A stretch of DNA of 64,000 nt, from positions 1 to 64,000 of the forward strand of contig JAHBWD010000026.1 in NCBI GenBank assembly GCA_019637175.1. The letters are read 5' to 3'. Origin of the DNA: Labilithrix sp. (GTDB taxonomy: Bacteria; Myxococcota_A; Polyangia; Polyangiales; Polyangiaceae). A program made the position numbers and the translations under genes. The notes beneath the pieces were generated by a model. It made no database searches. It saw only the letters and a list, made by a program, of their open reading frames with translations, and had not been told where the DNA came from. Of this stretch, positions 11,944 through 15,966 are shown one piece after another (the stretch's first letter is position 1; each line of letters starts with the position of its first letter).

Positions 11944-12921
11944 ATGTACACTCGCGGGGTGAGCGTCCGGGATTCGCTCATCTCGGTCGCCCCGGTCGCT
12001 CCGGGGGAGATCCTCGTCGTCGACGACGACGCATCCGTTCGCAGGGCCGTCATCCATGAAATGACGACCTTGGCGATGCGTGTCTCCCAGGCCGAGACGA
12101 CGGGCCGCGCGCTCGAGGTCGCCGAGGAGAAGCACGACACTCTCGACTGCATCCTCCTCGACCTCGGGTTGCCCGGCGGAGGCGCGTGGGAGGTGCTCAA
12201 GGCGCTGCGGGTCAACCCCGACACGGCGTCGATCCCCGTGATGCTCCTCACCGAGGGCGCGCCGCGCGAAGCCGATCTCATCAAGATGGTGGAGGCGGGC
12301 GCGCTCGATCACCTCACGAAGCCCCTCTCTCCCGCGCTCCTCTGCGCGAAGGTGCGCGTCGTCTGCGAGCGCGCGCGCACGCAGCGCGAGCTCAAGAACA
12401 AGCTCCACTTCGCGCTCGAGACGGCGGCGAACGACGCGCTGACGGGGCTCTTCAACCGCCGCTATTTCGAGCGACGCCTCCGCGAAGAGTGCGCCCACGT
12501 GAAGCGTCACAAGCGATCGTTCGCGATCGTGATGCTCGATCTCGATCACTTCAAGCTCGTGAACGACACGTACGGGCACGAAGACGGCGATCGCGTGCTC
12601 CGCCACCTCGCCGAGGTCGTGCAGGCCCAGCTCCGCGAAGACGACGTACCTTGCCGCTACGGCGGCGAAGAGTTCGTGCTCCTCCTGCGCGGCACGACCG
12701 GCATGGCGGCGCGCGTCGTCGCCAACCGGCTTCGCGCGAACCTCGCCTCGAAGCCGATCACGCTCGGGCCGAAAGACGAGCCGCGTCACGTGACGTTCAG
12801 CGCCGGCGTCGCGGCCGCCGACGATCGCAACGCGTACAACGCCGACGACATCGTCGGGCGCGCCGACGCCGCGCTCTATCGCGCGAAGCGCGCCGGCCGC
12901 AATCGCGTCGAGACGGAGTAG
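11944..12921 (+). CDS. Response regulator with GGDEF diguanylate cyclase domain
   Basis: 325 residues from ATG 11944 (an in-frame GTG at 11959 is an alternative). The receiver domain spans about 20-140, with acidic pair VVDDD and phospho-acceptor Asp in CILLDLGLPGGG. The GGDEF domain (about 160-325) has DALTGLFNRRYFE, DLDHFKLVNDTYGHEDGD and the signature RYGGEEFVLLL. An RxxD inhibitory site (R-E-D-D) lies exactly five residues before GGEEF. The product is therefore predicted to make cyclic di-GMP from GTP under phosphorelay and feedback control (PleD/WspR-like). No histidine kinase is adjacent; the only c-di-GMP receptor candidate in the window is the PilZ protein at 60412. Confidence 0.95.
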   Translation: MYTRGVSVRDSLISVAPVAPGEILVVDDDASVRRAVIHEMTTLAMRVSQAETTGRALEVAEEKHDTLDCILLDLGLPGGGAWEVLKALRVNPDTASIPVMLLTEGAPREADLIKMVEAGALDHLTKPLSPALLCAKVRVVCERARTQRELKNKLHFALETAANDALTGLFNRRYFERRLREECAHVKRHKRSFAIVMLDLDHFKLVNDTYGHEDGDRVLRHLAEVVQAQLREDDVPCRYGGEEFVLLLRGTTGMAARVVANRLRANLASKPITLGPKDEPRHVTFSAGVAAADDRNAYNADDIVGRADAALYRAKRAGRNRVETE

Positions 12922-12933
12922 CCCTTCGGTATC

Positions 12934-14427
12934 TCAGTCGCGGTGGGTCGAGGCCATGCGCGGGTCGAGGAACGTCGCGGCCTCGGGCGACGCGAGCGCG
13001 GCGTGCGCGTCGACGGGGAGGCCCACGTCGATCGCGCGGAGGAGGCCCGCCTCGCCGAGGCCGAACGCCTCCTCCGCGACCTGCTGGTAGACGCGCCGCT
13101 TCGGCTCGGAGTCGAGCCAGATCGTGATCCGGCGCATGCGCATCCCTCCGAGCATCGCGTGCCACCGGAGCGTCGTCATCATCGCTTGCGCGCTCATCTC
13201 GAGGCCCACGCGCGCCGCGCCGGTTCCGAGCGCGGGGACGGCGAGGGACTTGCACCCGTGCTCGTCGGCGAGGAGCAGCGCGCGCGCGAACGCGCGGCCC
13301 ACGCAAGAGACCTCGTTCCACGCGCTCACCGCGTGGAAGACGTGCTTCGCCGCGAGCCCGCCCGGCTTCGTGCGCACGCACGATCCGAGCGGCTGCTCGC
13401 CGCCTCGCTGCGCCTCTTCTTCGATCTCGTCGCCGCCCTTGCGTCGCAGCGCTTCGCCGACGCCGCTTCGCATCTTCATCTCGAAGTTGCCGCTCGAGAC
13501 GATCGCGTCGACGTCCGCGTTCGCGATGTCGCCGACCTCGAAGTGAACCTGCACCTGACCCACGAGGAGCTTCGTCGCGTCGAGCCGGCTCGCGATCGGC
13601 TGCGGCGGCTCGAGCGCGCGGCCGAGCATCGAGAAGTGGTGGAGCGGCGCGGAGAGATCTTCCGGCCGGCGCCGCACGTCCTTCTCGAGCATGCACCGCA
13701 CGAGCTGCTGGAAGTACGCCTCCGCCGGGCTCGTCGGCGGCGGAAGGCGCGGCGACGACGCGTCGTCGAGCAGATCGCCGACGCTGCCGAACGGCCCGTG
13801 ACCGTAGCGGAGATCGCACGCCGTCGCGCCCGCACCCCAGACGTCGGTGAAGCGGCCGATCGCCTCGCCGCGGAACTGCTCCGGCGCCATGAACCGAAGC
13901 GTCCCCGCGGTGTCGCGCGCGGCGTCGTCGGAGAGGCCGACCGCGATGCCGAAGTCGCCGAGGCGGATGCCTTGATCCGGCGCACCGAACACGTTCGAGG
14001 GTTTGAGGTCGCGGTGGATGACGCCGGCTTGATGCGCGGTGCGAAGGCCGAGGGCGATCTCGCGCATCACGTAGCACACGAGCCAGAGCGGCAGCCCGAC
14101 GCCGAGCGACGCGCGCCGCCGCCCGTCGAGCTCGGCGAAGTCGAGGCCGTCGACGTACTCCTGCACGAGATAAGGCAGTCCGTCGGGGAGCTGGCCGGCG
14201 TCGAGCGCGCGCACGATGCGCGTGTTCGACACGCGCGCCATGAGGCGCGCCTCGGATTGGACGCGCGCCGCGGCGAGCTCGCCCTGCGACTCACGCAGCG
14301 CCTTGCGTAGCGTCTTGATCACCACGGGGACGGCGAGCCCGCGGTGCTTCGCGAGCCAGACCTCGCTCATGCCCCCTTCGCCGAGGAGCCCCCATACCTC
14401 GTAGCCCGGCAGATCGAGCGGGACCAT
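12934..14427 (-). CDS. Ser/Thr protein kinase fused to a macro domain
   Basis: 497 residues. The kinase domain (about 8-265) has the Gly-rich loop LLGEGGMSEVWLAKH, the VVIKTLRK lysine, catalytic loop GVIHRDLKPSNVF, LGDFGIAVGL and the MAPEQF activation segment. The second part (about 290-440) reads as a macro domain: EVGDIANADVDAIVSSGNFE, a GVGEALRRKGG loop, KHVFHAVSAWN and LAVPALGTGAARVGLE, which match the ADP-ribose-binding loops of that family. There is no TM helix, unlike many PknB-like kinases. Predicted to couple Ser/Thr phosphorylation to ADP-ribose or a related ligand; this pairing is inference. It ends convergently with the GGDEF gene. Confidence 0.9.
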   Translation of the reverse strand: MVPLDLPGYEVWGLLGEGGMSEVWLAKHRGLAVPVVIKTLRKALRESQGELAAARVQSEARLMARVSNTRIVRALDAGQLPDGLPYLVQEYVDGLDFAELDGRRRASLGVGLPLWLVCYVMREIALGLRTAHQAGVIHRDLKPSNVFGAPDQGIRLGDFGIAVGLSDDAARDTAGTLRFMAPEQFRGEAIGRFTDVWGAGATACDLRYGHGPFGSVGDLLDDASSPRLPPPTSPAEAYFQQLVRCMLEKDVRRRPEDLSAPLHHFSMLGRALEPPQPIASRLDATKLLVGQVQVHFEVGDIANADVDAIVSSGNFEMKMRSGVGEALRRKGGDEIEEEAQRGGEQPLGSCVRTKPGGLAAKHVFHAVSAWNEVSCVGRAFARALLLADEHGCKSLAVPALGTGAARVGLEMSAQAMMTTLRWHAMLGGMRMRRITIWLDSEPKRRVYQQVAEEAFGLGEAGLLRAIDVGLPVDAHAALASPEAATFLDPRMASTHRD

Positions 14428-14461: not shown

Positions 14462-14854
14462 TCAGCCCGCCGCGGCCTTCACGTGCTCGGCGTAGGCCGC
14501 TTCGTCCATGAGCTTCTGGACCGCGGCGGCGTCGCTCGCCTCGAACGTCACCATCCAGCCCTTGCCGTACGGGTCTTCGTTGATGAGCTCGGGCTTCGTG
14601 TCGAGATCCTTGTTGATCTCGACGACCTTGCCGCTGATGGGCGCGTACAGATCGCTCAGCGTCTTGACGCTCTCGATCGTGCCGAACGCCTTTCCTTCTG
14701 CCACCTCGTCACCGACCTTGACGTCGAGGTTGACGAGCGTGATGTCGCCGAGCTGCTCGACGGCGAACGCGGTGATCCCCACGGTCACCCGGTTGCCGTC
14801 GGCTTTCGCCCACTCGTGTTCCTTCGTGTACTTGAGGCCCGCGGGGATGTTCAT
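14462..14854 (-). CDS. gcvH: Glycine cleavage system H protein
   Basis: 130 residues, the family's normal length. The lipoyl attachment Lys is near residue 64 in GTIESVKTLSDLYAPISG. The start motif GLKYTKEHEWA and the C-terminal EDPYGKGWMVTFE are typical. GcvH carries the aminomethyl arm between the P, T and L proteins when glycine is oxidised to CO2, ammonia and methylene-THF. The ATG at 14854 overlaps the gcvT stop (ATGA). gcvP, normally next, is not in the window. Confidence 0.97.
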   Translation of the reverse strand: MNIPAGLKYTKEHEWAKADGNRVTVGITAFAVEQLGDITLVNLDVKVGDEVAEGKAFGTIESVKTLSDLYAPISGKVVEINKDLDTKPELINEDPYGKGWMVTFEASDAAAVQKLMDEAAYAEHVKAAAG

Positions 14855-15966
14855 CGCTTTTCCGTCTTCTTTCGATCGTAAAACGGCGTCTTCACGACGA
14901 CCGCCTCGACGTTCTTGCCTCGGCAATCGACGAAGAGCTTCGTTCCGACCGCCGTCATGGCGCTCGGCACGTAGCCGAGGCCGATGCTCTTGCCCACGGT
15001 GGGCCCAGGGCTGCCGCTCGTGCAGACGCCCACCTCCGCGCCGCTCTCGTCGCGCAGCGGATAGCCGTGTCGCGCCACGCCGCGTCCGGTGACCTCGAAG
15101 CCGACGAGCCTGCGCGGCAGCGGCGACGCCTTGATCGTCTCGAGCGCCGCCTTGCCGACGAACATCGGCTTGTCGAGCTTCACCACCCAGCCGAGGCCGG
15201 CCTCGAGCGGGTTGGTCGTCTCGTCGATGTCGTTGCCGTAGAGCGAGAGGCGCGCCTCGAGGCGGAGCGTGTCGCGTGCGCCGAGCCCGGCGGGCTTGAG
15301 GCCGAGCGGCCCTCCGAGCTCGACGAGCTGATCCCAGAGCGCGGGCGCGTCGTTCCACGCGCAGAAGATCTCGACGCCGTCTTCGCCGGTGTAGCCGGTG
15401 CGCGCGACCGTGCAGCGGACGTTGGCGACGACGGCGTCGCGGAAGTGGAACGACTTCAGATCGGCGAGCTTGGCCGCGTCGCCGCCGGCGCGCGCGAGCA
15501 CCTCGAACGCCTTCGGCCCCTGGAGCGCGACGAGCGCCGTCTCGTCGGTGCGGTCTTCGAACTCGCAGTGGTCGACCGCGGCCTTCCGGAAGTGCGCGGC
15601 GATCTTCTCGTGGTTCGACGCGTTGCAGACGATGAGCCATCGATCCTGCGCCGCGCGGTACACGATGAGATCGTCGAGGATCGTGCCCTGCTCGTTGCAC
15701 GCGCACGTGTAGAGCGCCTGGCCGTCGACGAGCTTCGAAGCGTCGTTCGTGATCAGGTAGTCGACGACCTGCGCCGCGTACTCGCCGCGCAGCTCGAGCT
15801 CCCCCATGTGGGAGACGTCGAAGATGCCGCAGGCGGTGCGCACCGCTTGGTGCTCGTCGACGATTCCCGTGTACTGCACCGGCATCGAGAAGCCCGCGAA
15901 CGGCACCATGCGCCCCCCTGCGGCGACGTGGCGGTCGTAGAGCGAGGTCTTGCGGAGCTCCGTCAT
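14851..15966 (-). CDS. gcvT: Glycine cleavage system T protein (aminomethyltransferase)
   Basis: 371 residues from the ATG at 15966 (MTELRKTSLYDRHV), where homologues begin; an in-frame ATG at 16017 would add 17 unlikely residues. Family motifs are MVPFAGFSMPVQYTGIVDEH, CGIFDVSHMGELELRG, VARTGYTGEDGVEIF and GLGARDTLRLEA. It transfers the methylene group from the lipoyl arm of GcvH to tetrahydrofolate, releasing ammonia. Coupled to gcvH by a four-base overlap. No glycine riboswitch is evident in the 90 bases upstream. Confidence 0.96.
   Translation of the reverse strand: MTELRKTSLYDRHVAAGGRMVPFAGFSMPVQYTGIVDEHQAVRTACGIFDVSHMGELELRGEYAAQVVDYLITNDASKLVDGQALYTCACNEQGTILDDLIVYRAAQDRWLIVCNASNHEKIAAHFRKAAVDHCEFEDRTDETALVALQGPKAFEVLARAGGDAAKLADLKSFHFRDAVVANVRCTVARTGYTGEDGVEIFCAWNDAPALWDQLVELGGPLGLKPAGLGARDTLRLEARLSLYGNDIDETTNPLEAGLGWVVKLDKPMFVGKAALETIKASPLPRRLVGFEVTGRGVARHGYPLRDESGAEVGVCTSGSPGPTVGKSIGLGYVPSAMTAVGTKLFVDCRGKNVEAVVVKTPFYDRKKTEKR

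Follow-up and report, generated by a model that had tools for sequence, protein, structure and literature searches.

The window, by which we mean the whole 64,000-nucleotide stretch of Labilithrix sp. DNA analysed, encodes a soluble kinase with a macro domain, a resemblance that goes beyond chance motif similarity, and this kinase-macro fusion is an old, conserved myxobacterial family. Our preferred reading, to which we assign a probability of about 0.55, is that the C-terminal macro domain of this PknB-type kinase is a non-hydrolytic reader or sensor of ADP-ribose that steers the kinase and, probably, the phosphorylation of its tail. In the open-access literature searched, we found no account of such a family in bacteria.

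The fusion gene lies on the minus strand, a detail that the original prediction did not give; it opens with an ATG and contains no internal stop (Table 1). As originally predicted, a single 497-residue protein combines a complete kinase with a C-terminal macro segment: the quoted motifs are present, with DFG at residues 158-160, GDIANADVDAIVSSGN at residues 299-314 and PALGTGAARVG at residues 398-408, in addition to the HRDLKPSN catalytic loop. Pfam matched both domains, with Pkinase (PF00069) extending over residues 9-256 (E 4.7e-36, far above the curated cut-off) and Macro (PF01661) over residues 312-416 (E 3.8e-16), the score of 59.5 bits, well over the cut-off of 22, answering the HMM check that had been proposed for the C-terminal part. 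No TM helix was detected in the protein, again in agreement with the prediction, the highest 19-residue Kyte-Doolittle mean being 1.56. A frameshift or chimeric join, the artefact against which the prediction had warned, was rejected: the ORFs of 35 non-redundant members run straight through both domains, and all 16 aligned orthologs match both Pfam families.

Table 1. Features of the kinase-macro fusion gene and of the adjacent gcv genes in the window
Feature	Positions	Strand	Evidence
Kinase-macro fusion gene, 497 aa	12934..14427	(-)	Unbroken ORF; Pkinase and Macro by Pfam; 35 non-redundant full-length homologs
PknB-type Ser/Thr kinase domain, residues 9-256	13660..14403	(-)	Pfam PF00069; structure match to PknB 5u94
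Kinase catalytic loop HRDLKPSN, residues 138-145	13993..14016	(-)	H138, R139, D140, K142 and N145 invariant (35/35)
Macro domain, residues 286-455	13063..13572	(-)	Pfam PF01661; AF2 pLDDT 92.8; fold matches macroH2A1.1 and PARP14 MD1
Gly299-Asp300, predicted adenine contact	13528..13533	(-)	D300 35/35, G299 34/35; equivalent Asp in ThsA (PMC11204291)
Macro loop 1, residues 314-324 (N..7 residues..GVG)	13456..13488	(-)	Lacks hydrolase motif N(6x)GG[V/L/I]
Macro loop 2 ALGTGAAR, residues 399-406	13210..13233	(-)	Lacks G[V/I/A][Y/F]G; ALGTG invariant (35/35)
Predicted disordered C-terminal tail, residues 460-497	12934..13050	(-)	pLDDT <50 over 460-497
Conserved tail motif T485-F-L-D (T-x-hydrophobic-D), candidate phosphosite	12964..12975	(-)	T-x-[LVI] 32/35
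gcvH, glycine cleavage H protein	14462..14854	(-)	Sequence reading; gene order shared by one clade of relatives
gcvT, aminomethyltransferase	14851..15966	(-)	Pfam GCV_T E 4e-96, and GCV_T_C

Homologs were identified in 17 of 58 related genomes; 15 of the 17 matches were near full length, one (L017) was shortened at its N-terminal end and another (L019) was about 40% identical. A macro-domain profile run against 290 Polyangia genomes yielded 53 fusion matches in 51 genomes (E 6e-46 or better), almost all of them within open frames of 488-730 aa, which addresses the spread of the fusion in Polyangia, a question raised with the original prediction. These matches were separated by a clear gap from the stand-alone-type macros (7e-33 or worse), mostly located in frames of 170-260 aa. 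Six further carrier genomes, from classes outside Polyangia, were found in the phylum sample. When 84,980 species of bacteria and archaea were scanned by pattern, 25 loci were identified, 24 of them myxobacterial (the named carriers being Archangium lansinium, Archangium violaceum and Sorangium cellulosum So ce26), with patterns derived from the kinase-macro family itself, such that independent fusions elsewhere would escape. HRDxKPSN was present upstream, in the same ORF, at all 24 myxobacterial loci, and the remaining locus, from Saprospiraceae, lacked the kinase. A scan of viral contigs returned distant macro-domain relatives only. Larger architectures were also encountered. One kinase-macro homolog (G162:C3:675349-675855), from a genome that also has a second copy, lies in a 1059-aa open frame that may encode additional domains. 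Two large-genome Polyangia (L152 in G280:C1 and L153 in G029:C3) have macro-like domains within larger proteins (open frames of 539 and 551 aa), with an unidentified N-terminal region and a variant loop (VSSDDGQL in L152).

The full-length fusion was modelled with AlphaFold2 on the basis of 16 orthologs (mean pLDDT 81), and the only long uncertain stretches were the activation loop (160-174) and the tail (460-497). The pTM of 0.81 hints, weakly, at a fixed arrangement of the kinase and macro domains, as the structure tool reports no inter-domain error. The kinase half superimposed on Mycobacterium tuberculosis PknB (5u94) with a Z score of 29.4 and an rmsd of 2.1 over 248 residues. The matches listed by the full-length fold search were taken up by kinases, and the macro half was therefore folded separately (36 sequences; pLDDT 92.8). 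The resulting model, the second check proposed with the prediction, matched macroH2A1.1 (Z 27.8, rmsd 1.5 over 173 residues) and PARP14 macrodomain 1 (Z 27.6), for which several solved structures contain ADP-ribose. The nearest solved bacterial relative by sequence was TTHA0132 (Z 25.8, 30% identity, profile E 9e-31).

The kinase looks to be a working enzyme, with the catalytic set of PknB-like protein kinases (Gly loop, Lys, Glu, HRD, Asn, DFG and APE) complete. E59, HRD, N145, DFG and the GT..PE segment (P182, E183) were found in all 35 non-redundant members, and Lys38 in 34, with Arg in the one exception. Matches to PADLOC models (MAD6 and PD-T4-6) covered the kinase half only and were set aside as generic kinase similarity. 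The PASTA Ser/Thr kinase model (PknB_PASTA_kin), a class that needs a TM helix and PASTA repeats, gave 141 bits from the kinase part alone, well below the NCBIfam cut-off of 450 bits. Beyond the macro domain, the tail is variable and predicted to be disordered, and closes with a conserved Thr motif that the original prediction did not mention. T-x-[LVI] occurred within the last 32 residues in 32 of the 35 members (mean of 11.8 and maximum of 18 in shuffled sequences), and the longer form of the motif in 24 of 35 fusion members versus 0 of 13 other kinases from related genomes. Phosphothreonine-binding FHA domains accept T-x-x-D, and autophosphorylation of the tail followed by docking is a plausible candidate role for this motif.

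In the macro half, D300, G322, H365-A-V367 and A399-L-G-T-G403 were invariant across the 35 members, G299 was kept in 34 and N314 in 30, with His, Val or Arg in the other five; the GD loop, loop 1 Asn and loop 2 GTG of an ADP-ribose pocket are accordingly represented. By homology, Asn314 would hold the distal ribose, and the members in which it is changed may bind more weakly or accept another ligand. The Asp equivalent to D300 contacts adenine N6 in ThsA (PMC11204291). Mean entropy at 15 pocket positions, picked from the loops of known ADP-ribose-binding macros, was 0.47 bits, versus 1.22 bits for the domain (P ~1e-4 by random draws). The distance matrices of the kinase and macro halves were correlated (r 0.86; none of 2000 permutations as high) and mean identities within the halves were equal (57% and 58%), suggesting that the two evolve as one co-inherited unit. 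Had the macro domain lost ADP-ribose binding and become a structural or protein-binding module, the replacement of Asn314 in some members and the unusual loop 2 residues (AAR) would be readily explained, but the invariance of D300, G322 and ALGTG, together with a pocket much more conserved than the remainder of the domain, makes such a loss improbable.

Mono-ADP-ribosyl hydrolases are defined by a loop 1 motif, N(6x)GG[V/L/I], and a loop 2 motif, G[V/I/A][Y/F]G (PMC10470015). Neither motif was found in any of the 35 fused macros, which places them outside the MacroD type on both loops, versus 13 of 20 (loop 1) and seven of 20 (loop 2) stand-alone-type macros of related genomes. In the fused macros, Ser or Thr mostly replaces the first glycine of loop 1, and the loop 2 aromatic residue, the loss of which (F926A) cripples PARP14 macrodomain 1 (PMC10470015), gives way to Ala, Gly, Ser or Glu. 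Since the hydrolase signatures are absent from every member examined, binding is a better interpretation than removal, and hydrolysis by the fused domain is unlikely. The missing motifs leave some room for cleavage, because some hydrolases exist outside the MacroD motif class. The original prediction had allowed macro domains to bind or remove ADP-ribose; the ADP-ribose-type pocket is borne out by the HMM, the fold and the conservation, whereas the signatures of removal are not there. An eraser, in which the macro domain would take ADP-ribose off a target that the kinase would also phosphorylate, swapping one modification for the other, would be in keeping with the retention of Asn314 in most members and with the presence among the closest solved folds of PARP14 MD1, an active hydrolase. 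We nevertheless consider it a poor candidate, given the absence of both loop motifs from all 35 members and the replacement of the aromatic residue needed in PARP14 MD1. A conserved pocket combined with the loss of both hydrolase motifs in all 35 members leads us to favour a reader or sensor over an eraser.

PARP is the usual bacterial writer of poly-ADP-ribose. It was found in four of the 58 relatives and in two of the 17 carriers, with no association with the fusion, and was rejected as a partner writer; as just two carriers have it, what the macro domain binds may be an ADP-ribose nucleotide in free form and not a protein bearing ADP-ribose. Sirtuins, present in 54 of 58 genomes, were uninformative. 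KptA, found in 12 of 17 carriers and 11 of 41 other genomes (P 0.003), was also rejected as the ligand source, since genome size can explain this difference: among genomes larger than 8 Mb, it was present in 12 of 16 carriers and seven of 12 others (P 0.43). None of PARP, sirtuins and KptA was tightly co-distributed with the fusion among the 58 relatives. Elsewhere in the window's own genome (contig C129, locus L002), a WGR-PARP_reg-PARP protein (19-1356; Pfam PARP E 8e-26) is followed, 15 bp downstream, by the gene for a second macro protein, which stands alone and ends in a long acidic tail (1372-2124). We record this as a candidate bacterial PAR writer/reader pair.

The fusion had been described as having no adjacent partner, which does not hold for this genome: on the same strand, a gap of 34 bp separates the fusion gene from the end of gcvH upstream, gcvH and gcvT share 4 bp, and no terminator-like site was found on the gene strand in the gcvH-fusion gap. 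The gcvT-gcvH-fusion order recurs in the genus of the window and in several genera close to it, some of which also have gcvP genes lying between these genes or next to them. Most other carrier loci (in other Polyangia families, Archangium and Sorangium) have no gcv gene nearby, and no neighbourhood conserved across the whole fusion family was found. In the gcv-linked genomes, mutS and metK are also syntenic, so inherited gene order accounts for the linkage as well as function does. The linkage is still a lead, because in pathogens SirTM ADP-ribosylates GcvH-L and the macrodomain of the same operon reverses this modification (PMC4518038). A dedicated glycine-cleavage regulator acting in this manner, its macro domain recognising (ADP-ribosylated) GcvH and its kinase acting on GCS proteins, would suit the short same-strand spacing, the gene order shared by nearby genera and the SirTM precedent, but appears very doubtful given the many carrier loci without gcv genes, the synteny of mutS and metK, and a GcvH that sits with a canonical GcvT in a genome with its two sirtuins on other contigs. 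In two close relatives (G005 and G008), about 850 bp separate gcvH from the fusion gene (L040, 11400-12275), an insert that, judged by eye, may encode a membrane or PDZ-like protein. On the other side, the convergent neighbour (12010-12921, plus strand) looks like a diguanylate cyclase-like response regulator of the receiver-GGDEF type. Its stop and that of the fusion gene are 12 bp apart, and synteny of this neighbour is seen in several relatives.

For the favoured reader or sensor, the ligand binding, effect on the kinase, tail phosphorylation and substrates that we infer would be connected as follows. The macro domain would read a free or derived ADP-ribose nucleotide, as a sensor of NAD+ turnover, or, alternatively, ADP-ribose attached to protein or RNA, as a docking device. 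Binding would activate the kinase, cluster it or direct it to targets; the kinase would then phosphorylate its substrates, probably including its own tail at T-x-hydrophobic-D, and the phosphorylated Thr could provide a docking site for phosphothreonine-binding partners. More tentatively, this may be a bacterial kinase gated directly by an ADP-ribose nucleotide and a myxobacteria-wide switch from NAD+ breakdown or ADP-ribosylation to phosphorylation, a possibility to which we lend less than even odds. If the macro domain does gate the kinase, NAD+/ADP-ribose chemistry would be linked directly to Ser/Thr phosphorylation in myxobacteria, and the role of ADP-ribose signalling in bacteria lacking PARP would become testable, with Archangium and Sorangium as cultivable carriers.

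Each part of the protein is of a known kind: bacteria commonly have kinases that carry sensor domains, and antiphage defence provides examples of macro sensors joined to effectors. The new element is the combination of kinase and macro domain and its likely wiring. In its kinase part, the fusion resembles PknB/StkP-type kinases both by sequence (E 2.6e-28 to StkP) and by fold (Z 29.4 to PknB), but it has neither TM helix nor PASTA domains, the macro domain occupying the sensor position. With macroH2A-like macros (macroH2A1.1 and the PARP14 macrodomains), it shares the fold (Z 27-28) and the ADP-ribose pocket residues; the fused macro differs in being about 22% identical to them, part of a bacterial kinase and endowed with GTGAAR as loop 2. 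TTHA0132 of Thermus thermophilus (2dx6) likewise lacks the loop 2 aromatic residue, but is a stand-alone domain without a kinase. In the SirTM/Zn-macrodomain/GcvH-L operon, as at the fusion locus, a macro gene adjoins a glycine-cleavage H gene (PMC4518038), whereas the fusion has its macro domain joined to a kinase, canonical gcvT-gcvH genes, a linkage limited to one clade and no adjacent sirtuin, both SIR2 genes lying on contigs C24 and C90 and the fusion on C71. The nearest functional model is the Thoeris TM-macro effector ThsA. In ThsA, the effector is a TM segment rather than a kinase, and the locus is a defence locus with TIR proteins; in the fusion, the kinase takes the TM position, the locus looks housekeeping, and no adjacent gene for a TIR-domain ThsB was noticed among the window neighbours, part of which were HMM-scanned. 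The macro domain of ThsA binds ADP-ribose and imidazole adenine dinucleotide without hydrolysing them, and oligomerises on binding (PMC11204291), and it is this arrangement, a macro nucleotide sensor joined to an effector and binding non-hydrolytically, that the fusion is proposed to share.
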